42,869 bases of DNA, taken from IMG/VR virus record IMGVR_UViG_3300035698_007432, positions 1 to 42,869 of that record; one strand, given 5' to 3'. The notes under the pieces were generated by a model. It was not told the DNA's origin and made no database searches. It saw only the letters and a list, made by a program, of their open reading frames with translations. Of the stretch, positions 12,344 to 42,869 are shown piece by piece. This DNA comes from a virus. The position numbers and the translations under genes are program-made. Position 1 is the stretch's first letter. Each line of letters opens with the position of its first letter.

Positions 12344-12363
12344 TCTCAACTCCTTCTAGTGGG

Positions 12364-12549
12364 TCAATCCCACCGGATCGTCACGTGGCCGAGTTGGGCC
12401 AATCTTTTCGTGTAGTCCGTGATGTGGGTGGAGTCGATTCCAGCGCTCTCACCCTTTGGACTCAGTTTCAATGCAACCGGCCCGCCGCCTGCGTCCGTTG
12501 ACGCGGTGATAAGTTGGGCCAGATTATTCTTCACAGTCACGTTCGGCAT
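12364..12549 (-). CDS. Small conserved-position protein before the sheath gene, unknown function
   Basis: This 61-residue protein begins at an ATG overlapping the preceding stop codon (TGATG at 12549). An in-frame extension upstream lies inside the previous gene and was not used. The sequence (MPNVTVKNNLAQLITASTDA, then GGGPVALKLSPKGESAGIDS) is hydrophilic, with no membrane segment and no motif I recognise. Because it is translationally coupled and occupies the only space before the sheath gene, I take it as real. A neck or sheath-terminator accessory role is possible from position only. Confidence 0.65.
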   Translation of the reverse strand: MPNVTVKNNLAQLITASTDAGGGPVALKLSPKGESAGIDSTHITDYTKRLAQLGHVTIRWD

Positions 12550-18600: not shown

Positions 18601-20121
18601 TTACGGTGAGAGGTTGATCCGCGCGTAGAAGTCGGGATTGACCATCTTGGTCGCGTACCGACTCGCCATGCCCTTCTGGGTAAGGAAGTCCGCCGTGGTC
18701 AGACTGTCGGTGGTGTAAAGCATCTGGTACGGCGACCACACGAAGCCCGCCTCGAAGAACTGCGTGCCTTTGAAGCCCATCAGCACGTTACCAGTGGCAC
18801 TCGCACCCGTCTCGTTGATGAGGTGCCAGTCTTTGTACACCCTATACTTGCCCTGAAGCGTTCCAATGAAGTGCAAGCCTTGGACGCTCGCCGGACGCGG
18901 GGCCGGGACAAACAACGTGCGGGGCAGGGACTCGACCACGTTGGCCGCGCCCTCGTCCACCACCAACCAGTTGCCGTACCCCTTTTGGGTACGCTGCCAG
19001 ATGTTGTTGCTGGCCTGATTGAGGTAGTACACGATGTCCTTGAAGTGATCCTGCTGATTGTACCCAGCCGAACCCGTGATGGGGAACGTGGACACAATCG
19101 GCGCGACCGCCCAGATCGACGCGATGATTTGCCGCGCGATCTCGAAGTTCATCTGCTCGGCACAGCCGGAGATGAGATTCGGTTCGAGCGACACGCCGAA
19201 CTCGGTCATGACATCGTGCAGCGCCTCGGTGGAGTAGTTGAGTTGCATCGCGCGCCGCTGCGTCTCGGTCGTGCTTGTGGTGATCTGCACGTCCATCTGC
19301 GGGATGCTGCTCGACCCCTCACTGTCCCACCGGTAATACGCCGTCACCGCTGCGTTGGTGAACGTATCGGCGTTGACTTGGATGCTGTACACGCCGGTCG
19401 CATAGTCGATGCTCGATGCCGCGAGCGCCAACACCGCACCTGTGTCATCGCGCGTCAACACGAAACCACCAGCGGAGTTGTCGGTCGCGGTGACCCCAAT
19501 GGGGGTGCTATGCGTCAGCGTCAGCCGGATGGAGCCGGGGATGACGCCGCCCCCGTCGTGGTAAGTCAGGGTGCCCGTCACGGTATCCGCTCCGGGGCCT
19601 GCGCCCTTGGCTTCGCCGTCAACGACGTTATCCGAGTAGTGGTACCCGGAATCCTGCTTGCCGGTCTGCGCGTCGAAGGCCCGCTGCCCTGCGGTGATGT
19701 CGCCCTTCGTCGAGCCGTAAATCCAGTTCCAGTAAATCACCGTGGCCGTCCGGCGATTCGTGGGCTGAACCGACACGAGGTCGTTGATGGGATTGGTCGG
19801 GAACGCCGCGCGGATGATCGGGAACAGATAGTCACTGAACCCGCCGACCAACGCTGACCGCGTGGCCTCGTTGATGTGCAGCAAGCCGTCCTCATCCAGC
19901 TTGCTTCCCGCGCGGCAGACGCGCGCCTGCCAGCGCTTGCAGTTTTCGAGCACGATGGCGGTTTGCCCTCGGAGAATCGGGTCTTCGATCCGAAGATCGG
20001 CGTCCTCACTCTCCGAGAAGTATTCCAACCATCCACCCTCGGCTTCCGGGGTCTCGGCGAGGCGAAGGCCAGCCGCGACGATACCCTCGTAGATGCCGCT
20101 TTGCCCTTGCTGTACAATCAT
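18601..20121 (-). CDS. Major capsid protein (T4 gp23-like, HK97 fold) with inserted beta domain
   Basis: ATG 20121 with AAAGGACG upstream gives 506 residues. The order of segments fits gp23-type major capsid proteins: RRTATVIYWNWIYGSTKGDI near 124-142, CAEQMNFEIARQIIASIW near 320, LVVDEGAANVV near 386, and the C-terminal TQKGMASRYATKMVNPDFYA before RINL. The first 40 residues include LAETPEAEGG, a possible capsid-protease cleavage region. Residues about 180-268 are an insert (TGTLTYHDGGGVIPGSIRLT, SIDYATGVYSIQVN, AAVTAYYRW) that reads as an Ig-like beta domain and probably faces outward. The gene follows the protease-scaffold gene, as in T4-like phages. Confidence 0.92.
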   Translation of the reverse strand: MIVQQGQSGIYEGIVAAGLRLAETPEAEGGWLEYFSESEDADLRIEDPILRGQTAIVLENCKRWQARVCRAGSKLDEDGLLHINEATRSALVGGFSDYLFPIIRAAFPTNPINDLVSVQPTNRRTATVIYWNWIYGSTKGDITAGQRAFDAQTGKQDSGYHYSDNVVDGEAKGAGPGADTVTGTLTYHDGGGVIPGSIRLTLTHSTPIGVTATDNSAGGFVLTRDDTGAVLALAASSIDYATGVYSIQVNADTFTNAAVTAYYRWDSEGSSSIPQMDVQITTSTTETQRRAMQLNYSTEALHDVMTEFGVSLEPNLISGCAEQMNFEIARQIIASIWAVAPIVSTFPITGSAGYNQQDHFKDIVYYLNQASNNIWQRTQKGYGNWLVVDEGAANVVESLPRTLFVPAPRPASVQGLHFIGTLQGKYRVYKDWHLINETGASATGNVLMGFKGTQFFEAGFVWSPYQMLYTTDSLTTADFLTQKGMASRYATKMVNPDFYARINLSP

Positions 20122-20146: not shown

Positions 20147-21784
20147 TTACTCTGACTCCGCCACGACGGGAGCAACGGCTTCCTGCCGCGACTTCATCTC
20201 ATTCAAAGCACGCGCTGCTCGGCGCGCGCCCCGCGATGCAGACCTCGGACGCGGCTCCGGTGCTGCTGCTCCGTCATCGGACGCGACCCGCAGCCCTGCT
20301 GGAAGGGCCGGTCGGGATGATCCTGACGCAGCGGTGGGTGGTGCCACAGTCGGCAGCAGATGCTCGGCGAACAACGCCACGTGACCGGGGTCAGCGGCTT
20401 CCTGAAGCATGGAACCGAACTTACGTAGTTCGGGGTGCTCCGTCAGCACGGCTTCGACGGCGGTGTTGATCCCCGCCTCGTCGCGCTCGTCCTCGCTTTC
20501 CTCGGACAGACTGGCGATGTATGCCGCGGATACGTCCAGCTTGGCTTCCGTCAACCGAAGCATGGCCTTTATATCTGCCGCTTCACGAAGGGCAACGTCC
20601 AACTGACCCCGGAGAAGCTCAATCTGCCCTTCCCGGTCGGAAAGGGCCTCATGATACTCCGCCCGTGTGTTCTCAGCCTCATCCGTGAGCGTCTGGTACT
20701 GCTCCGCCAGTTCGCTGTTGGTTTTTTGAAGCCGGGACACGATCTGCTCAAATGCGCCCGCGCTGCGTTGACGTTCCTCGTCGGTCTCACCCTCGGTCGC
20801 GCCTTCGATGATGGTCTGGATTGCCACTTCCTGCGTAGCTGCGTGAACTTGACCTAGTTTACGGTGCAGCCAGTCTCGGAGTTCGTCCGCCTTTGCAATG
20901 GGGATCGACTTCTCCTTGACCGCGCCACTCACGCTCCCAAGCCGTGCCAGCAAGCTAGAGGTAAGCTCAATCCTGCCAACTTCATCCAGCGCCTCGATAG
21001 GCATTTCGACGAGTTCGGTGACGGCAACTTGGAGCGCCTTCGCCTCGTCAGTCAAGACGTCCTGCCCGTGTTCCTCAATCAATACTTCTTCGGTCGTGTT
21101 CTTGTCCTGTACCTTCGGCTTCGGGAACGCGCCCGGAGTCGAGGGCTTCATCACAGCGTCGAAGGTCACGAGGTTGTAGTCTTGCTCGTTAACCACGCCT
21201 TCTGCATTAACGCTTCCGGTGCCACGTGACGATACACCCCACCGGACGTTCTTTCGGATGTACTCCTGCACAATCTTACCGTTCGGGGTGTCCAATACTT
21301 CAGCGGTGCCCCACACCACGCCGTCCTTACGAAGCTGCAAGCTCGTCGTGATCAACGCACCCTTGCTGCCATCCGTCCTGCCGTCCTGCGGATGTTCAAG
21401 GTGTCCAATCATCCCCCGCTCTTTAATAGTCTGCTGCTGCGGGGACTTTGAGTCGGCGACGATACGCTCCCAAATCTTGCGGGGGTACCGCCGCTTGTTC
21501 GCGTTTGCCACGTCGGAGCGCTGGAAGGGGCCTTCGACGAACCAATGTCCGCCCTTGACCACCTTCGTACCGTCCGCCTTTTCCTCAAGGTCAAGGTCGC
21601 CGAAGCTCTCAACAATAACCGTATCTTCGACGAGTAGCGTCGTCTCGGCGAGTTCGTTCGGCGCTCCCTTGAAGAAGAACGCCTTCCCCCCTTGTTGAAC
21701 GAGTACGACTTCGGGGATCAGAGCGCCGTCAGCGCCCTCGTGAATCAGCGACCCCGATGAAAGGTAAAGTTCGGTAACGGACAT
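20147..21784 (-). CDS. Prohead protease fused to a scaffold-like coiled coil (T4 gp21-like)
   Basis: A protein of 545 residues with AAGGAG 9-12 bases before ATG 21784. Residues 80-215 match gp21-type capsid maturation proteases: VEGPFQRSDVANANKRRYPR, GMIGHLEHPQDG with candidate catalytic His128 or His131, VRWGVSSRGTG with candidate Ser185 or Ser186, and VTFDAVMKPSTPGAFP. Residues about 330-430 form a long coiled coil (FEQIVSRLQKTNSELAEQYQ, REGQIELLRGQLDVALREAA), and 470-545 is an Ala/Pro/Arg-rich tail. In T4 protease and scaffold (gp22) are separate genes. Here one chain carries both, so the scaffold would be removed by self-digestion. Role: capsid assembly, then cleavage of head proteins. 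Confidence 0.88.
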   Translation of the reverse strand: MSVTELYLSSGSLIHEGADGALIPEVVLVQQGGKAFFFKGAPNELAETTLLVEDTVIVESFGDLDLEEKADGTKVVKGGHWFVEGPFQRSDVANANKRRYPRKIWERIVADSKSPQQQTIKERGMIGHLEHPQDGRTDGSKGALITTSLQLRKDGVVWGTAEVLDTPNGKIVQEYIRKNVRWGVSSRGTGSVNAEGVVNEQDYNLVTFDAVMKPSTPGAFPKPKVQDKNTTEEVLIEEHGQDVLTDEAKALQVAVTELVEMPIEALDEVGRIELTSSLLARLGSVSGAVKEKSIPIAKADELRDWLHRKLGQVHAATQEVAIQTIIEGATEGETDEERQRSAGAFEQIVSRLQKTNSELAEQYQTLTDEAENTRAEYHEALSDREGQIELLRGQLDVALREAADIKAMLRLTEAKLDVSAAYIASLSEESEDERDEAGINTAVEAVLTEHPELRKFGSMLQEAADPGHVALFAEHLLPTVAPPTAASGSSRPALPAGLRVASDDGAAAPEPRPRSASRGARRAARALNEMKSRQEAVAPVVAESE

Positions 21785-27499: not shown

Positions 27500-30400
27500 T
27501 TACACACTAATAAATACTTCATTTATCGACCGGCCCTGTGCAAACGTGACTTCACCCCAGCACTGACGTACCTTATCCCGCGCCGTCTTGGCGGTGGCGC
27601 TGCTGCTGAATAAAGCCACGCGAAGATACTGGCGCAAGTTCGCCTCGTGACGCACGCAGATTTGATAAGGCGATGTAATCGTGATACTGCCGGTCAGCGT
27701 ATTCAACCCATGCTTTTTCCACGCTTCCGGCGTCGTGTACCGTGTGCGCGTGACATCACCAAACCCGTCACCTGAGCCAATGATATACACGTCCGGGCGT
27801 AGCGCCAAGCTAATGTCAAAGTACAAAACGCCGGAGCCAGCCGACAGGCCCTTACGGAATACGGAGAAGAAGCCCACGGAGCCGCCGTATCCCATGTCGG
27901 AGGGCACAGACGCGCCAGATACCGGGACGCCGTTGTACCCTTTCATCACGTTTGCCATCACTGCGCCGTTGCCCTTAGTCACCACGTCAATGAACGTCGG
28001 CAATGTACCACTCGTGATTTTATGCGCAACATACACGTGCCCAGAATTGCTCTCAGTGGACTCCATGTACTTCGCCAGACTCTTGCGCGTCCAACCCAAT
28101 CGCTTCGGGCGGAAAAAGCCCGCCTCGACCGCGTTGCCTTCCTCATCCGTCTCCGTGTTGTACCCGTACTCACCGTAGCCGGGGAGCAGGTGGAGATTCT
28201 CCGACGTAATCTTTGTCGCTCCGCCAACGGCAGCAGAACTGATGTGCGCGGCGACGTACTCCTTAAGCGCGGCCTTCGCGCCTTCCTTGTCCCCCGTCGC
28301 ATACGACTTTAAGGCAGTAACATACTCGGTATCGGTCGCGCCTTCACCCTCACTCGACGGATTGACAGTGCCCCCCGCCTGCGACACTTGTGGCTTCGAT
28401 CCCTGAAGTAGGAACGCGTTCTTTGACAAGAACAGTATTTCCTTGTCGTCCTCATCGGCCACGTTCATCTTAATGCTCGTGGCGTCCTCAAACGCGCGGA
28501 GCAGAACGGCGATGGACGCGGGCGTCGGCTCCTGATAAATAAGTCCCCACGCTTGCCCGTAGTATGACCTGATGGCGGAGTCACCACTCCCAGACTTGGC
28601 GGGTTGGAAGAACACATGCGCGCCCGGAAGGGCGGGGACAGTAATGGCATACTGCGACAGTATGCCCACGCCGCTGTACATCGGAGTCGTGCCTGCCTCG
28701 GTGATGGTGAGCGTCCCTTTCTTGGAGTCAGCGTCGTACACGGGCGACAGGGCGGGCCAGACTTGGCCCCCCTGCTGCTTAACGATATTTGTAAAGGCAA
28801 CGGCCTTTTCTTCCTCGGCTTCTTCTGGTGGCTCCCACACGAAGGGATCGTACATGTCCAACTTCTGGCCCTTGAACTGCTCCGGGTCGGCAGCGATACT
28901 CAGGATGTTGTTGGCGATTTCGAGGTAGTAAGTCGCCATCGCGTGAACCACGTCGTTCGGAATCTTCGTCTTGCCGTACTTCCCGGACTTACCCGCCGTC
29001 GCCTTGGCGAGCGCTTCGAGCGACGGCTTCCCGCCGTACCCCGCCCCGTTCGTCATCTGTTGAAGCTTCGTCACCGTATCGGGGTTCGGTTTACAATCCG
29101 GCTTGTCATAACAGTGCGTTTGGACAGTCTTGATCCCCGCGAGCAACAGGCCCCAATAAGGTTCCGGCGTTCCAGCAGCAGACTCAGAGTCAATACCCGG
29201 CAACACACCGGGGCCGATGTGCCCCGTCTCGACAGTCGCCTTGGACATCATCTCCGACTCAGCGGCAAGCGCTGCGTTCCGGTTGACCTTGAAGTACACG
29301 ACGGTCGCCAGTTTCCCCGCGTTCGGGCCACTGGTTACCGTAGCCGCCTTTACAAGGACTTCCTGATTCTCAATGGCATCCGCGTCGATGTGAATACTCT
29401 TGCCCTGCCAACCCGCAGTGACGGCTTCCTTGATGACAGCCGCTTCGACCTGCCCGAAGCCCAAGTCCTTCGCCGAGATCGTGACGGCCCCGACCGCCAT
29501 AGTTTCGTGCAAGTCCGGCCACTTGAAGCCCTGCTTCAGCTTCTTCAACACCTTCGTCCAGTCAGTGAGGTACGAGTCCCGCGCCTTGAAGATTCTGCCG
29601 AGCATCGCCGTCTTCTGCGCCGTCTTTAACTTCGACACGACGAAGAAGCCCGCCAACACGTCCTTGATTTTCTTATTCGAGATGCTCTGGATAGCGTCGA
29701 TAGCCGACCGCATCGCGGCGAACCCGCTCTCCGGGATGTGCGCCTTGCCAGTGGCCCACCGGAGCAGGAGCTTTTTGGCGTAGCCCTCACCCACGTTCCC
29801 AGACGGGTGGAACGAAGGGTCAAGACTCATCGCCGCGTTCTCTTTGTAAAAGCGAAACGCCTGCCCCCGGTCAATGGCAATGAGCTTCCCGCCCTTCTTA
29901 AGGAAGTTCCCCGCATGGCCGTCGTGATCGCCGATAAACATATCAACGACGTGCTGCTTGAGCAAGAAAGTCTTGTTTGGATCGTTCAAGTCACCGGGGT
30001 TGCCCGGAATCGGATCGGGGTCGAGGTTCTCGATGAGCGGCTGGATGCTAACGCGCTGCCCCTCGTAGTCCATCGCGCCAACGGGCACCGTATCCGGGAT
30101 AACGAGCGCGCCGAGTTGGTACGCCGCCGCTTCTGCCTCCGCGCGGACAGGCTTCGTGTCCTTCCCCTTTTTCGCAAACCACTTCGTTCCCTGTGGGCCT
30201 TCCAATATCATCGCCGGGTTTGAACCACCGCCCGGAATACCGACCTTCGCGTACTTGAACTGCGCCGGATCGGGCGCAGCCACGGTGTCCTTGAACAACT
30301 TGGCCGAGGGATTCGTCGGCGGGATGATCTTTTTCGGGGCCTTCTTCAGTGGGGCTTTCTTCAGGGTGGATGTCAGGCCCGCGTCGAGTGACATGGTGTC

Positions 30401-33400
30401 AGTCGGGGTCGAGGAGAGTAGTTTCGATAAGCTCGTCCCCGACGTCTTGAGGCCGACGTTCGACGCGAGGTTCGATTTCAACGTCCCGTACATCGCGGGC
30501 GTCAGACCCGTCGGGACGAATGCCGCCGCCACATCGTACACCAGCCCCGGCGTGATGCCCCCGGCATTCGGAAGGTCAGCTTCTTGCACGAGCACACGAA
30601 ACTCATGGAGCGTCAAGCCCGCCGCTTTCAGATCGCCGCCGTTGTAATACACCTTCTCGATGAACTTTTGCTTATCCGGCGACGGATGAATGAGGAACGG
30701 TTCGCTATATTTCGCCATGGCCGTGGCTTGCTCATCCACCTTGTACGTTTTCAACGCCGCGGCTCCGGCAGCATACACCACCCCCTCACCGTTTGGGGAG
30801 ACGGCGAAGATGAGCGGGATGACTTCGGACTCGCCGGTTACTTCAACGTAGCCCAACATTGCCATCGGCGTCGTACCCGCCGCGCCACCCTTGAAGATTT
30901 CCCCGTACTTCGGGCCTTTCGGCGCGTCCTTGGCCGTATCGAACTTCTGCACCGTCCCAACGTCCAAACCCTTCGGCCCACAAATCGTCTTGGCCTTTTC
31001 AATGTGTGTCATCGTCACGGGGAACGGGGCCTGAATGAGCAACACCTTCCAGTGGTCATCATCTGATAAGCCAGCAGGGAGGGCGACTTCGGTTCCGGGG
31101 GGCACGAGTCCCACTTGGCTGTACGATACCGCGGTCTGCACTTCGGCGCTGTGCGGCCAACCATGTTCCTGTACCCACTCAACCGCGTCGGCCAACACCT
31201 TCTTGTCCCGGTTAGACAGAAGCTTCGACCACTTCTTGGCCTGCGCCACCGCCGCAGATTTGAAGGTCACCGCGTCGGTTTCCTTGCCCGCCAGCTTTGG
31301 ATCGCCACCCGTCACGTAGCCGACGAAGAAACGCGTCTTGGAGTTACCGCCCTTATAATCGCCGAGGTACGCCACGGGCTTGACAGACAGGCCGGTTTCC
31401 TCTCTGACTTCGCGCACCGCCGCCTTCTCGATGGACTCACCCTGTTCGACGGTACCCTTCGGGAAGGTCAACTTGTCCCCGGAGAACTCGTTCAGCGGGT
31501 AAAACAGCAAGAACGAAGCGACCGACATGCTCTCCATGCCCTCCGAACTCGTATAAACTGCCCCGGCTGAAATCGCCACGATGCCCGCGGACGCGTGGCC
31601 GTCCGTAGGGTTGTGCGCGAAGGGCGGCTGTTTGATCGGCGGCGGCTCGTCCCAATCCGGGGGTATGTCGGACGGGACGACCGCCGTATCACCAAGCTGA
31701 ACGTTAAGTGCGGCGTCGTCTATTCCCTTTCCGAACGTGATGCCCTCCCCTTCGAGGTCAATTTGGTTACCCTGTGTATACACAATCGAAAATACTGCCG
31801 CTAGGAACTTCGTGGGGTACTCCCAATGAGTATCCGTACCCGCCTCGGCAACAACGGCCTGCACCCCCGTTTTTTTCTGCACCCAACCGAGCAAGACATA
31901 TTTAACACCATCCTCGTGTAGCAACGGCGTTCCAACATAGAAGGGCGCGTCGGGGGGCGACGGGACATAAGTGAGGTCAGCGTCCTTCGCAATTTGCTTG
32001 GCCTGCTTCGACAAATCGTAATTAAGCTTCGGGAAGCCACCTTCCTCACCGGGAATCGGGAGCAGCGCGGCGAGGATGTCTTGGTCAACCTCATAAACCG
32101 GGCCGTAGTCGTTGTTCCCCGTCGAACATGACTTAAAACTGATGTTCCCCTTCTCGGTTGTCGTAATATACATGGGCGCACCGCTGGCATTCTTGGCAAA
32201 GCCGATGATCGTGCGTATTTTTGTGGCTTGATACATCAACACGTCGCCCAACGACCACTGGTATGCCGACCCCGCCTCACTCACCGATACAAGCGACCAA
32301 CCCTTCTTCTTCACATAATCAATCGCCTGTTGAATACCACACAGACTGTTCCCCGGCGCGCCACCCGGTTCGGGCTTCGGGGTCTTCGGCGCATACGACG
32401 GGGCAATACCCTTTTCCACAGCGGCGGAGTTCAAGATGAAGTTGAAGTACGTGTATGTCTCGCCACCCCACTCGACGGATGCCTCTTGACCAAACAGTGG
32501 GATCGCCACACCCGTCCCGGTATCCACGGCGCAGACGTAGTTCAACGAAGCGTCACTCTCCACGGTGTCCCATGCGGTGGCGTCAGGAACAACAGGATCG
32601 AGGCCCCAAGCCGTGGGGGTGCTAACGACTGTCCACCCCACCTTTGGCAACTCGGAAATTACCCATCCAGCGATGTTGTTAAAGTTCGACTGCGCCAAGC
32701 CCATCCACGCAAGAGTGGCCCCTGCATCAAACGATACGGTTTCATGCACCCCCACAAAACCCCCGTGGTCTAACGGCTTCATCTTTTGGGCGAGGTACGT
32801 CCCATCCTTGACGCCCAAGATAAGGTAATAATCCGCGCCTTTACTCACGATAGCACCGAGAGGGAACTTGTTCGTTGGCGTGGGCGGCACGTAGTCTTCT
32901 TCCTCATCCTCAACATCTTCCTGCTCGGACGCGGCATACTGTTGCAGCGCCCCCACGCCACCGTGGGAAACGGGTTCGATCTTCCCGGAGTTAATGAGGT
33001 TAACGAGCTTGGTGTCCTCAACGTTGGTATACGCCCCCGCGTCGTCTCGGTACACCAGCACGACCACCGACGTATCGGTGAACATGAAGGCCGACTGGAA
33101 AATGAACTTATTGCCTGCCGTGTCTTTAACAACCGTGTTCGTGTCAATCCCAACGCCGAACTTATCACCGAACGCCTCGGACGCGTCGGTCATAATGATA
33201 CCGACTTCCTCAAAATCGCTGTCCAAGTACGAGTTGTCCATAAAGTTCTCGGCAGACGAGAAACCAGCCTTCTCCGTAGGTGCCGTCGCCTTGAACCACG
33301 CGTTACCATCCAACAATTCCTTCGCCAAATCAGAATCAGGGATGACGATGTATTCGTTCGCCTGTGCATCAGATAGCAGAATCCAAAGGTCGCCGTCCTT

Positions 33401-35251
33401 ATCTTTCGCCACGCAGATCACACTGACTTCCATCCCGTTACCACCCATCACCATCATGCCGGGCTTAAGCTCCGCGCCCCCCGTGAAGGCAGCGGTCTGC
33501 GTGTTGGTTAACGCCCAACTGCTCAACACGATGGTCTCCATGTCAGCCACGTCGCGGATGATTTTCACGTACGCGGACGGGTACTCATCCACGTCGTTCG
33601 CGATAGACGACGTTTCCGCACTCGGCTCAGATGGTTTGGGAACCACGGCCTGCTCTGGCGTCTTCGGCTCGGTGTGGTACGTAGTTCCGGGCGCGCCCGT
33701 AACTCCCTGCACCACGATAGCCGCGCCAGATTTAAGGTTGAGCGCCAACGTCGTGTCCGCGAGGCTTTTGAGGTCACCCACCTTCCCTGCGGACGCCCCC
33801 TGCTTTATGATAGAAAATACAAACTCCTTATCTTTATTGGCCCCGGTAAAGGAAAAGGCGGCTTCCACGCGGTAATCAACCCCGCCGCTCGGCGAGCGCA
33901 CAATAGAGCCGATTCCCATCGGAGTTTTGAGCGCAACCGCTGCCTTACCCGCCTTCGTCTTAGAGATCGGGACGGCCTTGAGATCGTCCTCCGAGAACAG
34001 GCCACCGTACTTCTTGACAAGGTGCTGCTTCGCCACTTCCTTCGCCGCGGCATTCGTAGGCGTCTGCGACAAAGATGGCCCGCCCTGCGGCAGAGGCTTC
34101 CCCGCCGCAAACTGTTGAAACAGGGAGTACACATCGGCGTCTAATGGGATTTGCGCTGCGATGGTTTGCCAGTCGCCTTTCTTCCACGCCAGCATCAGCG
34201 TGTGAAACAGCGGCCCGGTGTACTTGACAGACTTAAGCCACAGCTTCGCCTGCGTCAGCGTCTTGAACGCCTTCGCCTTGCCAATCTTCTTGCCCTTCCA
34301 CGCCGCGAGCATCAGCATCCGCATACTGAGATCAACGTTCGGCCACTTCGAGAAGCCGGGGCTGAGGTATCGCGCGCCGTCCGCGTGAAAGTACAAGTTG
34401 ACAATATTGATCGTGTCGTGGTACATCGTGAAGGGTAGTACCTTGACGCTCTCAAGCGGCGGCTTCTTGCTAGACTTATTAAGACCCTTAAGTTGCTCCG
34501 GGGCTTCAACCGCGAGGATAATGTACGGGACGAGCGTCCCCCACATCATCTTCTGCACCTTCTTGGAAAACGCTTTACTCGCGCCACCCCCTGTAATCAT
34601 CGCCTGCGGGAGTGACTCATCAAGGCGGAGGTCTTCCAGATCGAGTGTTGCCGCCAGCTTGTATCCCACGTCTTCCAGTTGAAGCTTCTGGTACACGACG
34701 CGAAAAGGATCGGGCGAGTGCAAACGGCGGTACAACGCGTTCCCCACGGCTTCGGCTGCTTTACCAAACACAGAGGGAAGGTCAATAAGGTTACCCGTGG
34801 CGCGCGTGTACTCCTCAATAAAACGGGCGACAGAACGGGGCGTCAGGCCGTACTCGTACCGCCACGCTCCCACAGAGAAGCGACCAGACAGGGCTTCAGC
34901 GGAGAGCTTAAATAACGGGAGCAGCGGTTCTTCTTCAAGGACGCCTTCCTTAACGAGCCGCTTGAACTCCCCCGCCGCCCACTTCTGCCCGGCAGTCCCA
35001 CCGTACAAGAGCCACGAACAGACGAGGGCGGAGTCCGCCTCGGTTCTAAGGGTACGTAGTTCTTCTTGATACGCGTCGGCTTGGATTGAGAAGAAGCGGT
35101 GCAAACGGGCCACGAGCGCAGTATCAACAACACCTTTTATTAAGGCGCGGGCAGCAGTCAAACCGGACACGTCCGGGTGCGCGTTCTCTTTGTGCGCAGC
35201 AAGGCCGCGCAGCGCTGAACGTTTTGCGGCATCTGGTACGGCCAACGTCAT
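27500..35251 (-). CDS. Giant multi-domain virion-associated protein with Nudix and HipA/PI-kinase-like domains (polyvalent-type)
   Basis: The chain of 2583 residues starts at an ATG overlapping the kinase stop (TAATG). Residues 1-390 are mostly helical (ALVCSWLLYGGTAGQKWAAG), as in head- or injection-associated proteins. Residues 420-1200 hold repeated beta modules separated by Pro/Glu-rich linkers. At 1266-1288 the Nudix box is exact (G-x5-E-x7-REVREETGL), so hydrolysis of a nucleoside-diphosphate derivative is expected. Residues 1665-1800 resemble HipA/PI-kinase-type cores: nucleotide-loop segment VGIPGGGSNPAMILEG, catalytic GDHDGHAGNFL (D1775, D1777, N1782) and IAIDRG (D1794). Residues 2200-2583 carry SVPSDMGYGGSVGFFSVFRK and VLYFDISLALRPDVYI, reminiscent of large actinophage polyvalent proteins. 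Roles as an ejected effector are inferred. Confidence 0.8.
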   Translation of the reverse strand: MTLAVPDAAKRSALRGLAAHKENAHPDVSGLTAARALIKGVVDTALVARLHRFFSIQADAYQEELRTLRTEADSALVCSWLLYGGTAGQKWAAGEFKRLVKEGVLEEEPLLPLFKLSAEALSGRFSVGAWRYEYGLTPRSVARFIEEYTRATGNLIDLPSVFGKAAEAVGNALYRRLHSPDPFRVVYQKLQLEDVGYKLAATLDLEDLRLDESLPQAMITGGGASKAFSKKVQKMMWGTLVPYIILAVEAPEQLKGLNKSSKKPPLESVKVLPFTMYHDTINIVNLYFHADGARYLSPGFSKWPNVDLSMRMLMLAAWKGKKIGKAKAFKTLTQAKLWLKSVKYTGPLFHTLMLAWKKGDWQTIAAQIPLDADVYSLFQQFAAGKPLPQGGPSLSQTPTNAAAKEVAKQHLVKKYGGLFSEDDLKAVPISKTKAGKAAVALKTPMGIGSIVRSPSGGVDYRVEAAFSFTGANKDKEFVFSIIKQGASAGKVGDLKSLADTTLALNLKSGAAIVVQGVTGAPGTTYHTEPKTPEQAVVPKPSEPSAETSSIANDVDEYPSAYVKIIRDVADMETIVLSSWALTNTQTAAFTGGAELKPGMMVMGGNGMEVSVICVAKDKDGDLWILLSDAQANEYIVIPDSDLAKELLDGNAWFKATAPTEKAGFSSAENFMDNSYLDSDFEEVGIIMTDASEAFGDKFGVGIDTNTVVKDTAGNKFIFQSAFMFTDTSVVVLVYRDDAGAYTNVEDTKLVNLINSGKIEPVSHGGVGALQQYAASEQEDVEDEEEDYVPPTPTNKFPLGAIVSKGADYYLILGVKDGTYLAQKMKPLDHGGFVGVHETVSFDAGATLAWMGLAQSNFNNIAGWVISELPKVGWTVVSTPTAWGLDPVVPDATAWDTVESDASLNYVCAVDTGTGVAIPLFGQEASVEWGGETYTYFNFILNSAAVEKGIAPSYAPKTPKPEPGGAPGNSLCGIQQAIDYVKKKGWSLVSVSEAGSAYQWSLGDVLMYQATKIRTIIGFAKNASGAPMYITTTEKGNISFKSCSTGNNDYGPVYEVDQDILAALLPIPGEEGGFPKLNYDLSKQAKQIAKDADLTYVPSPPDAPFYVGTPLLHEDGVKYVLLGWVQKKTGVQAVVAEAGTDTHWEYPTKFLAAVFSIVYTQGNQIDLEGEGITFGKGIDDAALNVQLGDTAVVPSDIPPDWDEPPPIKQPPFAHNPTDGHASAGIVAISAGAVYTSSEGMESMSVASFLLFYPLNEFSGDKLTFPKGTVEQGESIEKAAVREVREETGLSVKPVAYLGDYKGGNSKTRFFVGYVTGGDPKLAGKETDAVTFKSAAVAQAKKWSKLLSNRDKKVLADAVEWVQEHGWPHSAEVQTAVSYSQVGLVPPGTEVALPAGLSDDDHWKVLLIQAPFPVTMTHIEKAKTICGPKGLDVGTVQKFDTAKDAPKGPKYGEIFKGGAAGTTPMAMLGYVEVTGESEVIPLIFAVSPNGEGVVYAAGAAALKTYKVDEQATAMAKYSEPFLIHPSPDKQKFIEKVYYNGGDLKAAGLTLHEFRVLVQEADLPNAGGITPGLVYDVAAAFVPTGLTPAMYGTLKSNLASNVGLKTSGTSLSKLLSSTPTDTMSLDAGLTSTLKKAPLKKAPKKIIPPTNPSAKLFKDTVAAPDPAQFKYAKVGIPGGGSNPAMILEGPQGTKWFAKKGKDTKPVRAEAEAAAYQLGALVIPDTVPVGAMDYEGQRVSIQPLIENLDPDPIPGNPGDLNDPNKTFLLKQHVVDMFIGDHDGHAGNFLKKGGKLIAIDRGQAFRFYKENAAMSLDPSFHPSGNVGEGYAKKLLLRWATGKAHIPESGFAAMRSAIDAIQSISNKKIKDVLAGFFVVSKLKTAQKTAMLGRIFKARDSYLTDWTKVLKKLKQGFKWPDLHETMAVGAVTISAKDLGFGQVEAAVIKEAVTAGWQGKSIHIDADAIENQEVLVKAATVTSGPNAGKLATVVYFKVNRNAALAAESEMMSKATVETGHIGPGVLPGIDSESAAGTPEPYWGLLLAGIKTVQTHCYDKPDCKPNPDTVTKLQQMTNGAGYGGKPSLEALAKATAGKSGKYGKTKIPNDVVHAMATYYLEIANNILSIAADPEQFKGQKLDMYDPFVWEPPEEAEEEKAVAFTNIVKQQGGQVWPALSPVYDADSKKGTLTITEAGTTPMYSGVGILSQYAITVPALPGAHVFFQPAKSGSGDSAIRSYYGQAWGLIYQEPTPASIAVLLRAFEDATSIKMNVADEDDKEILFLSKNAFLLQGSKPQVSQAGGTVNPSSEGEGATDTEYVTALKSYATGDKEGAKAALKEYVAAHISSAAVGGATKITSENLHLLPGYGEYGYNTETDEEGNAVEAGFFRPKRLGWTRKSLAKYMESTESNSGHVYVAHKITSGTLPTFIDVVTKGNGAVMANVMKGYNGVPVSGASVPSDMGYGGSVGFFSVFRKGLSAGSGVLYFDISLALRPDVYIIGSGDGFGDVTRTRYTTPEAWKKHGLNTLTGSITITSPYQICVRHEANLRQYLRVALFSSSATAKTARDKVRQCWGEVTFAQGRSINEVFISV
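30389..30401. repeat. Recurring palindrome, copy 4, inside the giant gene (TGACATGGTGTCA)
   Basis: Same inverted repeat with one arm mismatch, located in the Ser/Thr-rich linker at residues 1617-1621 (TDTMS) just before the kinase-like domain. It is the only one of the six copies not at a gene junction. It may be a coincidence of coding sequence, or a site inherited from a fused gene boundary. Confidence 0.5.
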
Positions 35252-36132
35252 TACTTCACCGTCGTAAATCCTTTAGCGCCTTTCGGCTTGAACATTCCCA
35301 ACGCGGTCTTCCCTGTTCCCGCGATCTGCTTACCGAGGCCAAGCGCTCCCCGCGTCTTTCCGTCGCGCACGCGAGCAAACGTTGGGCGCTGCTCCTCCGG
35401 CCAGTCAGACGCCTTGAACGACTGCGCTTGCCGAACAAGCTTCTCGTCCTTCTTCAGCCACTCCTGCCCGACCGTGTTCGCGACGGACAAACTCAACACC
35501 TTCCGGCCAAGCGTGCGTAGCTGCGGGACGACATTCTTTTGCCAAAACGCGGGCGTGAGATCGACATCGTTCTTGATTTCATAGAAGCGCTTCTTACCAA
35601 ACAGCTTCTTGTACCGCGCCTTATTCTTTTCGAGGCCGTACCACGCGTCGTCGATGAAACTCGACGGCACGTTCCTGCCCCCCACTTTCGCGCGCGCAAC
35701 GTTCCTGCGATGCGCGGTTGGATTACTGACGGTGATGCACACCATCGTGCAGTCGTACCCCAACTTCCTGAGCTTATGATATGGCCCGGCAACCCGATCA
35801 TACGCCCACCCCGTACAATCAATCACCAACCCTCGACGACGCACGGCGTAGTATCGAAGCTCGTTGTTGCGGATGTCTCGCGCCTTCGTAAACATCTGCG
35901 GCTGCGCACCGACTTCCTTCGGCGAAATCTTCGCCCACTTGAGCATCGCTTCAAGATGCACGTCAGCGTTGATTTCCTTGAGTGGGGCACCGGGGAACAT
36001 GTCCTTGGCAATCCGCGTCTTGCCTGCGCCCCCGGAGCCGACGACGAAGATGGCCTTGAGGACGCCCTTGTCCCGCAAGCTCTCATCGAGCCGCTCAACC
36101 GCGGGAGCTTCAGGAGTGTAGGCCGTTCGCAT
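35251..36132 (-). CDS. Zeta-toxin-like P-loop kinase
   Basis: I place the start at ATG 36132 (293 residues); the frame extends 17 codons upstream into the previous gene. Residues 32-39, GSGGAGKT, form the Walker A loop. INADVHLEAMLKWAKI (residues 52-67) contains a likely catalytic Asp, and LVIDCTGWAYDR is the Walker-B-like strand with substrate loop. ITVSNPTAHRRNVARAKVGG, RNVPSSFI has the Arg-rich lid typical of zeta-toxin and polynucleotide-kinase-like enzymes. The C-terminus is basic. No antitoxin gene is seen next to it. The palindrome spans the junction with the previous gene. It is translationally coupled to the giant protein, so the two probably act together, perhaps as injected effectors. 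Confidence 0.8.
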   Translation of the reverse strand: MRTAYTPEAPAVERLDESLRDKGVLKAIFVVGSGGAGKTRIAKDMFPGAPLKEINADVHLEAMLKWAKISPKEVGAQPQMFTKARDIRNNELRYYAVRRRGLVIDCTGWAYDRVAGPYHKLRKLGYDCTMVCITVSNPTAHRRNVARAKVGGRNVPSSFIDDAWYGLEKNKARYKKLFGKKRFYEIKNDVDLTPAFWQKNVVPQLRTLGRKVLSLSVANTVGQEWLKKDEKLVRQAQSFKASDWPEEQRPTFARVRDGKTRGALGLGKQIAGTGKTALGMFKPKGAKGFTTVK

Positions 36133-36146
36133 TGACACCGTGTCAG
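36132..36146. repeat. Recurring palindrome, copy 5 (TTGACACCGTGTCAG)
   Basis: The inverted repeat (arms TGACAC/GTGTCA) covers the stop codon of the upstream small gene and ends on the first base of the kinase start codon. In RNA the arms can pair and lie between GUGAGGG and AUG, which would bring ribosome site and start together. Confidence 0.85.
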
Positions 36147-36556: not shown

Positions 36557-36903
36557 CGTTTCATCATCTGTCCGAGCGCGGCGGCGGCAAGACTTGCGCC
36601 AGACCGGGAGGGAGCGGCGCGCCGAGACTCCGTGAGGGGTGGCGTCTTGTTAGCACCTGCGTCTGCCTCCGCGGAGGATGATACGTCGGCGACGGTTCCC
36701 ACACTTTCATCTTGGCGCGCCGAGACTTCACTGGTTTGGAGTACGTTAGCTCCCCGGTGCGCGCCCACGCGCGCGAGCGCGCGATACGTAACAGACTCGT
36801 CTTGCCGGAGACGTTGCTCTGAGGCGGTTGTGGTTGGAAGAACGGACGATCCCGACGCTGCCATTGGTTCACTCCAAGTAACCGGGCGGTCGGGTACGTT
36901 CAT
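36553..36903 (-). CDS. Small low-complexity protein, unknown function
   Basis: This 116-residue frame fills the space between the core-like protein and the next gene, and its stop overlaps the next start. The sequence is rich in Ser, Ala, Arg and Thr, and contains RQDESV twice (residues about 33 and 63) with TYRALARVGAHRGANVLQTS between them. The start at 36903 has only a weak GGCGG ribosome site. The other frame in this interval is Arg/Pro-rich and looks spurious. Composition resembles disordered head-internal proteins. Real but uncertain. Confidence 0.5.
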   Translation of the reverse strand: MNVPDRPVTWSEPMAASGSSVLPTTTASEQRLRQDESVTYRALARVGAHRGANVLQTSEVSARQDESVGTVADVSSSAEADAGANKTPPLTESRRAAPSRSGASLAAAALGQMMKR

Positions 36904-36984: not shown

Positions 36985-38139
36985 TTACTCGTCTTTGGTT
37001 TCGTCGATGGTGACGGCTTCCTGCGCCTTATCGGCACATGCCCGCTGGTGCTGCAAGGCCGATGCAGCCAAGGACGACCCCTCACTGAGTTGCATACGAG
37101 GATCGCGCTCCTGCTCAACGCTGGCGGCGATGGTCTTGCCCTTCCCGCCCTTTTTGCCCTTGAACAGTCCCGCGGCTTTCTTCATGGCCGCTGCCTTCTT
37201 GCCGCCCCCCTTTGCCTTCGCCAACTTCTTGCTGACGCTGCCCTTCTTGCCCGTCTTCCCAGACAGGCGCTTTTCGGGCGGAACCCACGGCTTCGGCATC
37301 TTGGCACCGAGGTTCTTGTAGATAACCTTGATGACCTTCTTGCGGCCCGGATCAACCAAAGCCTTGATCTTACCAGCTTTCTTCGCGCCCTTTGCCCGCA
37401 TCTTCTGGTAAATCTTGTTTTTCGACGGGGAGCCGCTTGCGCCGCCGGGGCCGTATCCGGGCTTGTAATCACCGCCCCTATACCCCTTACCCTTCGCGAC
37501 GCGGACGATGGCACCCTTCTTGAGCATGGCGACCATCATCCGTTTACGCTGATTATGAACCTGCAACTTCCCGCCCTTTGCCCCTCCACTCGCGCCCTTG
37601 AACGGCCCCTTGCGGAAGTCGCCCTTCTTGAACGGGGCCTTACGCTCGTCCAACTCACTGTCGTCCACCAACGACAACACGTCGGAGAACTCAGCAAGCG
37701 CCGCCTTGTCTTCGAGGGTTTCAACCGGCATCTCGTGGACGACGTAGTATTCGAGCATCGAGTACAAGTCGTCCTCGTCGATGAGTTCCGCGACGATCTC
37801 GCCGGGAATAACCTCGCATTCGACGGCGATGATTTTCCGGTCGGCAATCTCCGCGTCGTCGTCCGCGCTCTCGGCTTCCTTAACCGCAGCGTCGTCAGCG
37901 GGGAACAGGAAGGCGTCCTCAGCATCCGAGCTTTCGGTGAAGTATTGGGTTTCCTCGATGACGAACCCCTTCAACTCCGGGTCGTCAAAGAACACGTCAT
38001 AGTTGACGTCTTCGAGGAATACGGCGATGGTTTCCGCTTCGAGCGTCAGCTTCCCGTCCTCACCGAGCAAGGAACTTTCGTCGAACTCCGCACCTTCAAC
38101 AATGTCGGGGTTCACTTCCGTCGTGGTTGTCACTGGCAT
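36985..38139 (-). CDS. Acidic/basic chimeric protein, putative internal head (core) protein
   Basis: ATG 38139 with GGAG 6-9 bases upstream gives 384 residues; a TTG further upstream was rejected. Residues 1-170 are strongly acidic (DESSLLGEDGK, EAESADDDAEIAD, IDEDDLYSMLEYYVV). Residues 171-350 are Lys/Gly-rich (KKGDFRKGPFKGASGGAKGG, KGKKGGKGK) with a helical segment (NKIYQKMRAKGAKKAGKIKA). The end is mixed (QALQHQRACADKAQEAV-like). Such charge segregation is typical of internal head or core proteins and DNA-binding scaffolds. It is the first gene after the predicted promoter. The basic half could bind DNA; the acidic half may mask it until processing. Family unknown. Confidence 0.72.
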   Translation of the reverse strand: MPVTTTTEVNPDIVEGAEFDESSLLGEDGKLTLEAETIAVFLEDVNYDVFFDDPELKGFVIEETQYFTESSDAEDAFLFPADDAAVKEAESADDDAEIADRKIIAVECEVIPGEIVAELIDEDDLYSMLEYYVVHEMPVETLEDKAALAEFSDVLSLVDDSELDERKAPFKKGDFRKGPFKGASGGAKGGKLQVHNQRKRMMVAMLKKGAIVRVAKGKGYRGGDYKPGYGPGGASGSPSKNKIYQKMRAKGAKKAGKIKALVDPGRKKVIKVIYKNLGAKMPKPWVPPEKRLSGKTGKKGSVSKKLAKAKGGGKKAAAMKKAAGLFKGKKGGKGKTIAASVEQERDPRMQLSEGSSLAASALQHQRACADKAQEAVTIDETKDE

Positions 38140-39171: not shown

Positions 39172-41145
39172 TTACGGAGCCGGGAAGGTGGTGGATACAA
39201 CGGCCACGCGCGCGACCCACTGCACCACGTCGCCCGTTGCATCCGCGTCCATCACTTCAATCTTGAGCGCGTCATTCGGATCATCCGCCGCGGCCTGAGC
39301 ATCAAAGCTCACGTCGTCCGCGTCATCAATCGTAGTCACCGACATCCCGCGCACCGTGGTCGTGCCACCGTCGTTTTCACACAGGCCAATCACATTGAAC
39401 GCGAAGCTCTTGGCCGCGCCCGCCGTCATCCCAACGATCTTGGCCTCAAAGTTCCAAGTCGTGTCCACGGGGATGTTCAACTGGTCGGCGGTTCCGTCGA
39501 GATACAACTCGTGCCAGTTAGCATCCCCGTGCGTAACCGCATCCCGCATAATAACCACGAAGCCCTGCGCGTCGCCATTAGAAACAAACTTCCCCGCGGC
39601 GTGCGCCTGCATCCCATACTGGTCAGCGAGGCCGTCATAACCGCCTGCGATTGCCGCGTAACTTGCGCTAGCAACATTGGTGTTTCCACCGCCAACCGTA
39701 GCGCCAAAAGCGCCGCTGGCAATGTTATTATACCCACCGCCAATAGTTGCATAAGCACCACTGCTTGTATTACCGGAGCCGCCGCCAACGGTCGCATGCG
39801 CGGCGGTCACGTCGTTGGACTGCCCACCGCCGATAAAGCCATGTGTCCCTGCCGTCTTAATCTCGTTGGCCTGCCCCCCGCCAATAACACTATAGGTACG
39901 GGACGCGGCGATGTCGTTGTTGAGGCCCCCGCCGATAAAGCCGTAAGTTGCCAACGCAACAATGTCATTGCCTTCCCCACCGCAGATGGTAGACACGTCC
40001 GCAGCAGCCCCGTTGGTGTCGCCGCCACCCACGAAGGAGTGAGTTGCTGAAGCTGTATTAGAATCGCCCCCACAAATCGTTGCGTAAGTCTGAACCGCCG
40101 TATGAGCATACCCGCCACAAATGGTCGAGTAATTACTGCCCGCGTTATGATCTAAACCCCCACCGACCGTCGCGTAACTCCCCGCGGCATCGTTGTCTTC
40201 ACCGCCGCTAACCGTCGAGCCGACCGCGCCCGCCGTGTTTTCCGTACCCCCGCCAATCACCGAGTAGTCCCCGCTGGCAACCTCACCGGCATTAAGGCGT
40301 GACATCTGAAGGTCAACCGCCCCATCCCCGCGCGCGTTCCCCCCCGAACTCGTTCTAAATGCGCCGGTTCCGTTCGGCTCGACAACGATGTCACCATCCA
40401 CGATAGACGTGGTGATCTTGAATGCCTGTACGTCAAGATCAGCGCCAAGCTGCGGGGTCACATCATCAATCATGTCGTGGAAATGTAACCCGGCGGCGTC
40501 ACTCCCGTCCGTCAGCGTTTCCGCCTCAGCCCCTAAGATGTTCGTGGCGGCGAAGAAGGTCTGCGCCTCAGTCAGCAGGGCGAAGGTTCCAATGTTAACC
40601 CACGCCGCCCCGTTATACGCCGTGAGCATGTTCGAGGTTTCATCGAGCGTCACCGCGCCCTCATCAGGGGTGAAGTCCTCCCACAGCAGGCCACTCCATT
40701 CGTAGATATGGTCGGCGACAACTGCCTGCCCTGTCACGCTGCCGACGCCGGTACCCGTGTTCAAATACCGGTCACCCGCACCCGGCCCGGCGGGTTCTGC
40801 CGCCGTGAAGTCGAGGATGTTAATGACAGACTCTTGCCAATCAAAACCAAGACCGGCTGCCCCGCCCCCCGTGCTGATCCACACCGCTGCCGTGGGCGTC
40901 GGGTCGATACAAACAAAGATTTCGCTCGTGATGGTATTAAGCCACTTCGACCAGATGTTAAAGGTGCCCCGGCCTGCCGTATTCGCCGAGTCATCGTTCG
41001 CCGTGGGGTTAATGATAGCGTTGCCAATGACTTCTCCCGCGCGGTCAGCCAACGCTTTGAGGGCAACCTCAATGTGCTGCGTGCCCGTGGCACCGGGCGC
41101 GGTGAAAACAGTCAGGCCCTTATATGTAGTCGTCGCCGGGGGCAT
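39172..41145 (-). CDS. Tail fibre with YadA-like head repeats
   Basis: A 657-residue protein. Residues 1-290 are a mixed beta N-terminal part (tail attachment candidate). Residues 293-506 consist of about 14 repeats with core xxSxIGGGxxNxA, each 14-18 residues (YSVIGGGTENTAG, YATVGGGLDHNAG, HGFIGGGQSNDVT), the left-handed beta-roll head-repeat pattern known from YadA-like trimeric adhesins. The last 150 residues (QGFVVIMRDAVTHGDANWHE, WNFEAKIVGMTAGAAKSFAF) form the typical C-terminal fold of phage fibres. Two cysteines recur as TICGG. AGGGA lies 7 bases before the ATG. It probably forms a trimeric host-binding fibre. Confidence 0.85.
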   Translation of the reverse strand: MPPATTTYKGLTVFTAPGATGTQHIEVALKALADRAGEVIGNAIINPTANDDSANTAGRGTFNIWSKWLNTITSEIFVCIDPTPTAAVWISTGGGAAGLGFDWQESVINILDFTAAEPAGPGAGDRYLNTGTGVGSVTGQAVVADHIYEWSGLLWEDFTPDEGAVTLDETSNMLTAYNGAAWVNIGTFALLTEAQTFFAATNILGAEAETLTDGSDAAGLHFHDMIDDVTPQLGADLDVQAFKITTSIVDGDIVVEPNGTGAFRTSSGGNARGDGAVDLQMSRLNAGEVASGDYSVIGGGTENTAGAVGSTVSGGEDNDAAGSYATVGGGLDHNAGSNYSTICGGYAHTAVQTYATICGGDSNTASATHSFVGGGDTNGAAADVSTICGGEGNDIVALATYGFIGGGLNNDIAASRTYSVIGGGQANEIKTAGTHGFIGGGQSNDVTAAHATVGGGSGNTSSGAYATIGGGYNNIASGAFGATVGGGNTNVASASYAAIAGGYDGLADQYGMQAHAAGKFVSNGDAQGFVVIMRDAVTHGDANWHELYLDGTADQLNIPVDTTWNFEAKIVGMTAGAAKSFAFNVIGLCENDGGTTTVRGMSVTTIDDADDVSFDAQAAADDPNDALKIEVMDADATGDVVQWVARVAVVSTTFPAP

Positions 41146-41507: not shown

Positions 41508-42869
41508 TTACTCATTTGACACGATGTCAATCGTCACGTCGTCTCCGGTGAAGAACTGCTCAATCTTTCTCCCAGCTTCGGTATCCACCAAAGCAACCAC
41601 TGCCCCCTCAACCACACGGACAGTCGCGGCGTCGTTGTCCACACCCGCCTTCTCTGCGACGGCAAGGAACTCACGCAGGCGCGCGTGAGGGAAGGTGAAG
41701 GTGATGGCGTCGTCGGTATCTTCTTCCATCTTAGCGATTGCCCTGTCCGTATACCCAACAGACTTCAGGAACGCGCGGGCTTCCTTCTTGTTCATCCCGC
41801 CCATCACCTTCGCCCCGGCATCAGACATCTTGAGTGTTTTTTTGGCAATCGACAACTGATGCCTTTGCGGGACAGAGAGGCTTTTCATAATCGCCTCGTC
41901 GGTGGACTCACCAAACTTCTTGTACGAGTTGATAAGCATCATCTTCTCGCCGGTAGTAAAGCTGGCGAGAGGCTTGTTGAAATTAGGGTTCAGGCCCAAC
42001 TTGTCGAGCAGTTCAGCGCGCCCGTTCTTGTCTAACTTCTTCCATATCTTGGCGAGCTTCTTCTCGCCGCGGACGTTTTCCTCATCGACGGACTCGCCCC
42101 AATCATCACTGGCAGAATACACGAGGGCGCGCTGACCGACCTTCTCCATCGCGGCTTCGGCTTCCTTGTCAGACAGGCCAGTGAACAGGACGACATCCGG
42201 CTGGTTACTCCAACCGTACTGCGTATCCGTCCAAACCTTCGTCGCTCCGGCCTTCTTCAGCGCGGCGGTAATCTTCTTGACGTTGTACCCCTCAGTCCAC
42301 TTGGCATACAGTATCCCCTTCTTCTGCCGCTTGGCCTCGTCAGTGGATTCGTCCATGCGCTTAACGGGGGTCACCTTCTGATCCTGCGGCAACTTCTCCT
42401 CCTTAAACGTACCGAGTGCGAAGGCGACGGCTCCCGACTTAACGAACACGCCCCTAATCTTGTCCCGCCACTTATACGTGAACAGGTCACCGTCCTTCAA
42501 CTTCCGATACGGAGTGTCCGCTCCGTTCCTTCGCATCAGGCGGTTACGCAGGAACTTCACGAGCTTCGGATCGTCCGCGCCCATCGTGGCTTCGTCGGTG
42601 GACTCGTTCTTGGCAAGCGCAGCGAGCGCCGCCTTCTTGCCCCCGTCCTTCTTGTAGTAAGTACCGATCATCTTGCCGAACCGCGGCGGGCCTTGGCCGA
42701 CGATGGGAGCGAACGCCTTCCACGGGTGGGTTTCACCCGGCACCGGCTTATACTTCGAGAGGAAGCCAAGGACTTTGCCGCTGACAGTCGAGACCATGTA
42801 CCAGTCTTCGGTCTTGGCCCCGCCGTGCTTGAGCTTCTTGAGGTCGTACTTTGCCTCGTCCACGGACTC
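41508..42869 (-). CDS. Modular protein of ESxDEA-tagged segments (5' end outside window)
   Basis: The frame is open to the right edge, so the N-terminus is missing. The visible part, about 453 residues, is built of six modules, each starting with ESVDEA, ESTDEA or a close variant: at residue -1, 87, 172, 257, 319 and a degenerate EEDTDDA near 380 (numbered from the GTG at 42863). Spacings are about 88, 85, 85, 62 and 62. Modules are basic and differ from one another (DWYMVSTVSGKVLGFLSKYK; DGDLFTYKWRDKIRGVF; NVKKITAALKKAGATKVWTD). The layout fits a polyprotein of small internal head proteins separated by a processing or targeting tag. That role is inferred. Confidence 0.7.
   Translation of the reverse strand, partial: ESVDEAKYDLKKLKHGGAKTEDWYMVSTVSGKVLGFLSKYKPVPGETHPWKAFAPIVGQGPPRFGKMIGTYYKKDGGKKAALAALAKNESTDEATMGADDPKLVKFLRNRLMRRNGADTPYRKLKDGDLFTYKWRDKIRGVFVKSGAVAFALGTFKEEKLPQDQKVTPVKRMDESTDEAKRQKKGILYAKWTEGYNVKKITAALKKAGATKVWTDTQYGWSNQPDVVLFTGLSDKEAEAAMEKVGQRALVYSASDDWGESVDEENVRGEKKLAKIWKKLDKNGRAELLDKLGLNPNFNKPLASFTTGEKMMLINSYKKFGESTDEAIMKSLSVPQRHQLSIAKKTLKMSDAGAKVMGGMNKKEARAFLKSVGYTDRAIAKMEEDTDDAITFTFPHARLREFLAVAEKAGVDNDAATVRVVEGAVVALVDTEAGRKIEQFFTGDDVTIDIVSNE
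41516..41530. repeat. Recurring palindrome, copy 6 (TTGACACGATGTCAA)
   Basis: This inverted repeat with one arm mismatch forms the last codons of the modular gene (IDIVSN) and precedes the AAGGAG ribosome site of the next gene. Confidence 0.75.

Follow-up and report, generated by a model that had tools for sequence, protein, structure and literature searches.

A tagged multi-module chain at the end of a viral contig

The window analysed here is an entire IMG/VR viral record (IMGVR_UViG_3300035698_007432; 42,869 bases). The reading frame at 41508-42869 encodes 453 aa in a single open frame with six ES(T/V)DEA-type tags, the sixth of which is degenerate. This frame runs off the record, so that its true N-terminus and possible extra modules are out of view. 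The chain is laid out as follows.

41508-42869, minus strand: tagged multi-module chain, 5′ end open at the end of the record
42852-42869, minus strand: tag 1, ESVDEA
42606-42851, minus strand: body 1, basic (pI 10.0), orphan
42588-42605, minus strand: tag 2, ESTDEA
42351-42587, minus strand: body 2, basic (pI 10.2), orphan
42333-42350, minus strand: tag 3, ESTDEA
42096-42332, minus strand: body 3, basic (pI 9.4), with a predicted ferredoxin-like alpha/beta fold that lacks significant structural matches
42078-42095, minus strand: tag 4, ESVDEE
41910-42077, minus strand: body 4, basic (pI 10.0), helical
41892-41909, minus strand: tag 5, ESTDEA
41724-41891, minus strand: body 5 (SVPxxHQ..IAxxTLKMSDAGAxVMGGMxKxEA), basic (pI 10.4), present at 52 viral loci as a single gene or within a chain
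41706-41723, minus strand: tag 6, EDTDDA, degenerate, Asp at P1
41511-41705, minus strand: body 6, C-terminal domain, acidic (pI 4.5), conserved at the C-terminus of the orthologues in contigs G041 and G045

The segments are 88, 85, 85, 62, 62 and 66 residues long in tag order, which confirms the first-pass annotation of this DNA in its description of six tagged segments of about 62-88 residues with unrelated bodies. ES[TV]DE occurs five times in the chain, compared with a mean of 0.00055 and a maximum of 1 in 20,000 composition shuffles, and no two bodies are similar at E<1e-3. Since the tags differ from one another by synonymous codons (GAC/GAT, GAG/GAA, ACC/ACT, GCA/GCC/GCG), the repeat is maintained at the protein level. 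Varied bodies behind a conserved tag within one phage, a feature of T4-type internal proteins, are thus present in the chain. Bodies 1-5 are strongly basic (pI 9.4-10.4) and body 6 is acidic, as are the majority of the 30 other window proteins tabulated. Five of the six tags have Glu at P1, with T or V at P3, and they consequently differ from the L/I-x-E pattern of S77 protease substrates.

A Pfam search with the chain retrieved no family, and a PHROG search only a weak match of unknown function. The separate bodies likewise gave only weak matches in Pfam, PHROG and PDB profile searches (best per-body PHROG E-value, 0.007); homology to the bodies of T4 IPI, IPII, IPIII or Alt was not detected in the Pfam and PHROG profile searches, as distinct from direct alignment with the T4 proteins. 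A faint resemblance of body 5 to the helix-hairpin-helix of DNA glycosylases (E-value of 0.06) was set aside. The AlphaFold model of the chain, built with 30 sequences that bear on body 5 only, is weak overall (mean pLDDT 64, pTM 0.36) and consists of small domains, of which body 5 is folded with confidence. Low-confidence stretches lie at or adjoining four of the five internal tags, and the tag preceding body 5 is modelled confidently. Foldseek searches with this model returned nothing at E<=0.001, the top matches being mostly small ferredoxin-like domains.

Body 5 occurs as single genes and in other chains

With the whole chain as a query, three viral loci were found, and every match fell in or around body 5. 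An alignment search with body 5 extended these to 52 environmental viral loci, duplicates among them, in which body 5 takes two forms, either single genes of 62-66 aa or long chains with a lineage-specific repeated tag. The single-gene relatives begin with MKFGKYLNE|ISVPQKHQ (L012), MDLINKIDKYLNE|LSVPQKHQ (L011) or MKIYEKYLQE|KRKLSVPEKHQ (L015, identical to L003), where the bar marks the putative cleavage position. Judged from sequence, these N-termini resemble the T4 capsid-targeting leader and stand directly before the body. The T4-like leader with its Glu-ended site is thus seen in the single-gene relatives; the equivalent in the window is internal, the N-terminus of the chain lying beyond the record. 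Of 41 proteins, 29 have [LIVT]-x-E within 15 residues upstream of body 5, where 8.7 would be expected; shared ancestry of the flanks may inflate this count.

In the chains, the repeated tag is ESVNEA in L056 (seven tags), NPALEMR in L052 (RSANPALEMR), MTSRRDRVA in L013 (together with L002), SRRA in L018 and VNEDIF[HQ]E in L036. Body 5 of L013, L016, L018 and L052 is preceded by tags without the Glu motif. All segments of L056 have a pI of 9.6-10.5.

Leaders of the single-gene type are numerous in record G019, where the loose motif [YFILM][ILV]xE is found in the first 20 residues of 24 of 112 ORFs (7.9 expected). Small genes account for about 17 of these 24, MRFGKYLTE and MGKIDEKIDMYLNE being examples of their leaders; many of them lie near the protease and capsid genes, and several directly between the two. 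The candidate site of the capsid protein in this record is KYLTE|TG. A different arrangement was observed in L016 (record G011), where at least seven small genes at about 74-86 kb share an amphipathic N-terminal tag (IARELVAVARELTA-like; regex expectation 0.1) on unrelated bodies, and where body 5 stands behind the same tag in one further gene, the start codon of which was called upstream. The capsid family of G011 also differs (phrog_2522), with no phrog_138 match in the record.

ESVNEA chains and orthologues of the window chain

A DNA pattern of two ESVNEA-like tags about 60 aa apart identified 17 further viral contigs, each with at least one ORF of 2-7 tags. The segments are often 55-70 aa long and mostly have a pI of 9-10.5. 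Wherever an S77 protease gene lies within the fetched DNA (L139, L144, L149, L147, L137 and L056), the chains are beside or close to it, with a gap of 8 bp in L139 and 8-40 bp in L056, and abutting genes in L144 and L149. Profile searches detected the protease in eight of the 17 records, several of the remainder being short fragments. All-against-all comparison of 98 segments revealed that the same bodies recur across chains in differing order; because the clusters are single-linkage, the largest of them may be mixed, and some contigs are near-duplicates of one another.

Relatives of the window's capsid protein led to two long contigs, G041 (143 kb) and G045 (150 kb), with orthologues of the chain. 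Both share the C-terminal domain with the window chain, and used as a probe, body 6 matched these orthologues only. The two also have an N-terminal domain in common with each other, weakly. The G041 orthologue has a single ESVDE tag and that of G045 degenerate tags, and their segments are mostly non-basic. These differences imply that the cargo content is variable and leave room for a scaffold-type role. The first-pass annotation had held that absence of the tags from relatives would refute its reading; such absence is seen in part, in these two orthologues. It had also proposed looking for similar arrays in other jumbo phages: related chains do occur in other phages, but the long-record relatives, at 143 and 150 kb, are not demonstrably jumbo.

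Against 50,697 phage records, tblastn searches with the window chain and body 5 gave no significant match, and those with the L050, L038 and L144 chains no match. The L056, L044 and L152 chains produced partial matches only, mostly to cyanophages and Flavobacterium phages. A scan of cellular genomes with body 5 retrieved a single 4 kb contig from an archaeal bin, which may be phage sequence.

The tag core recurs in the protease-scaffold protein

The candidate processing enzyme and the major capsid protein are encoded in the window as follows:

20147-21784, minus strand: S77 prohead protease fused to a scaffold-like C-terminal half, candidate processing enzyme (PF03420, E-value = 1.3e-24; phrog_207, E-value = 8e-42)
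21734-21748, minus strand: LIHE|G close to the N-terminus of the protease; five relatives have IxE|G or LxE|G
21032-21055, minus strand: LTDE|AKAL (VLTDE|AKAL) at the protease/scaffold junction, core as in the tags
20975-20989, minus strand: LDE|VG, candidate site; five relatives have LxE|(S/T/G) at the aligned position
20771-20788, minus strand: ETDEER in the scaffold half
20669-20689, minus strand: LTDE|AEN in the scaffold half
18601-20115, minus strand: major capsid protein (phrog_138, E-value = 1.9e-39)
19855-19878, minus strand: HINE|ATRS, candidate pro-peptide site of the capsid protein, by alignment

The Peptidase_S77 match bears out the gp21-like protease that the first-pass annotation had placed at 20147. 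The motif [TV]DE[AES], present five times in the chain, has three copies in the protease-scaffold ORF, where 0.12 would be expected, and one of the three is at the junction; of the other 29 window proteins, only two have it, with one copy each. The tag-related pieces noted earlier in nearby genes, namely RQDESV (36790-36807 and 36700-36717) and FTESSDAEDA (37912-37941), do exist but are weak evidence: RQDESV does not include the DE(A) part, and [TV]DE[AES] in the protease-scaffold ORF is the better match to the tags.

The junction is L/V/M-[STN]-E in five relatives of the protease-scaffold protein, which also show conservation of other Glu-ended sites. For the capsid protein, the candidate site from alignment reads I[ND]E|[AV]TR. 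All these Glu-ended sites of head proteins are candidates from alignment as distinct from mapped cleavage sites. The P3 residue of the candidate sites that the relatives conserve is mainly L, I, V or M, compared with T or V in the window tags; L/I-x-E does occur in head proteins of the window other than the chain. Among 12 records, the capsid site resembled the tag of its own record more closely than the tags of other records (p=0.011; for P3 identity, p=0.034), a result that is suggestive only, because the sites were chosen manually. In both of the ESVNEA phages for which a capsid gene is available, the capsid site is LVTE|A. Another acidic element, conserved close to the N-terminus of the capsid protein (19993-20013, minus strand), SESEDADL in the window and SETDEADL in L086, is also tag-like.

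Comparison with known internal head proteins

T4 internal proteins are ejected into the host with the DNA, and those injected include an inhibitor of host restriction. T4 IPI, IPII, IPIII and Alt consist of a short conserved leader, cut after Glu, on varied small proteins, and the single-gene relatives of body 5 have such leaders. In T4, however, every internal protein is encoded separately and has a single leader, at its N-terminus, whereas in the window many bodies share one frame with internal tags. The T4 protease gp21 cuts after L/I-x-E, and the capsid-targeting leader of IPIII comprises 10 residues with processing after position 10 (PMC9026906); T4 thus offers a precedent for L/I-x-E cleavage and 10-residue targeting sequences on diverse cargo (PMC9026906; PMC3012670). 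Asp at P1 blocks cutting but not targeting, and cleavage of the core proteins gp22 and gp67 yields several fragments of each (PMC9026906). The window resembles the gp21/Peptidase_S77 system in its S77 protease and in the Glu-ended candidate sites of the protease-scaffold and capsid proteins; it differs in the T or V at P3 of its tags, and gp22 and gp67 are core proteins reduced to peptides rather than strings of cargo.

In SPN3US and phiKZ, internal head proteins are likewise processed after Glu (A-x-E/S-x-E) with a lineage-specific P3, but the cuts remove N-terminal propeptides, some of them long, and the accessible parts of the published accounts describe no cargo arrays. P1 DarB is similarly directed into the head by an N-terminal signal, but is a single large protein with no repeated internal tags described. 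The best reading is that the window chain represents a variant of the T4 capsid-targeting and internal-protein kind; its chained form appears to be new, as we found no precedent for phage polyproteins of this cargo-chain type in the openly accessible literature searched.

Possible function of the chain

We consider it probable that the chain is a string of internal head proteins that are targeted to the prohead, where the prohead protease cuts behind the final Glu of the tag. In this scenario, a chain of small internal head proteins would be built into the prohead core, the S77 protease of the phage would cleave behind the final Glu of every ES(T/V)DE|A tag, and the small, mostly basic released proteins would remain with the DNA in the head and accompany it into the host on ejection. 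The two termini, namely the acidic C-terminal domain and an N-terminal domain seen in the orthologues only, would stay constant, with cargo bodies gained or lost in between. The first-pass annotation had offered two ideas, a polyprotein cut at its tags, possibly by the gp21-like protease, and a capsid-targeting tag fused to many cargoes. Both now have independent comparative support from T4-like leaders before the same body, chains beside the prohead protease and tag-core sites in the protease-scaffold protein; packaging, cutting and ejection themselves, as well as the functions of the bodies, we infer. Several observations speak against this reading: T or V at P3, Asp at P1 of tag 6, the few or degenerate tags and mostly non-basic segments of G041 and G045, the tags without the Glu motif before body 5 in some phages, the hand-chosen sites of the within-record comparison and the low pTM of the model.

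Some of these observations would fit a chain that is packaged but stays uncut, one long multi-domain internal protein in which the tags are repeated scaffold-docking signals. Targeting and cutting are separable in T4, where Asp at P1 retains targeting (PMC9026906), the sixth tag has Asp at this position, and the window tags deviate from the L/I-x-E consensus. Yet in the single-gene relatives a Glu-ended leader directly precedes the body, as in the cut internal proteins of T4, and the tag core is found at the protease/scaffold junction; we regard an uncut chain as unlikely. A core or scaffold-type protein like T4 gp22 or gp67, cut to mostly expelled peptides, with bodies functionless after maturation, would accord with the location of the chain in the head gene region, with the fragmentation of gp22 and gp67 and with the multi-segment, mostly acidic orthologues. 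This role is rather improbable, given that the bodies also exist as stand-alone genes and are reshuffled from phage to phage, that body 5 is folded confidently in the AlphaFold model and that the protease already carries a fused scaffold-like half.

The near-invariance of the tag residues despite synonymous codon change, the occurrence in each phage of a lineage-specific tag on unrelated bodies and the resemblance of the tags to capsid-protein sites make it very improbable that the tags have no recognition role and are mere acidic linkers of one fused protein or recombination edges, even though the model has low-confidence stretches at most tags and the orthologues have degenerate ones.

Beyond the window, we tentatively suggest, with somewhat less than even confidence, that many uncultured myovirus-like phages carry cargo cartridges, that is, polyproteins of small ejected proteins with a lineage-specific sorting-and-cutting tag, the bodies of which are exchanged as cassettes among phages, and that other head types use other tag codes (the amphipathic IARELVAVARELTA leader, SRR-type, NPALEMR) on the same bodies. 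If the cut-chain reading is correct, a single gene of a tailed phage can encode a string of ejected proteins that is cut within the head, the tag would be a simple sequence handle with which to find uncharacterised injected phage proteins, and the lineage-specific tags would constitute a natural set for loading proteins into phage heads.

Neighbouring genes and a second cargo candidate

A further gene of the window has a leader of comparable form:

35251-36135, minus strand: Zeta-toxin/AAA_33-type kinase, with a leader ending in RLDE|S (36070-36093), resembling tagged kinases of other phages

It aligns with the kinases of L011, which starts with MRFEDYLLE|G, and L095 (VSE|G), and the junction Glu is invariant in all three. 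In L095, a phage related to that of the window, the Zeta-toxin-type kinase (12147-13517, minus strand) is fused to a domain of the Thoeris inhibitor Tad6 (E-value of 2e-25). The Tad6 domain is compatible with an anti-defence cargo, short of demonstrating one.

Two other genes of the window are also conspicuous. One, in the head gene region (27500-35251, minus strand), encodes a protein of 2,583 aa that includes a NUDIX domain (PF00293, E-value = 4.4e-13), and similarly large ORFs are found at the equivalent position, by place rather than by alignment, in L087, L088 and L092. The other, at 39172-41145 (minus strand), encodes an acidic protein of 657 aa that has numerous GGG-type repeats, matches DUF2793 below threshold and is possibly a fibre.
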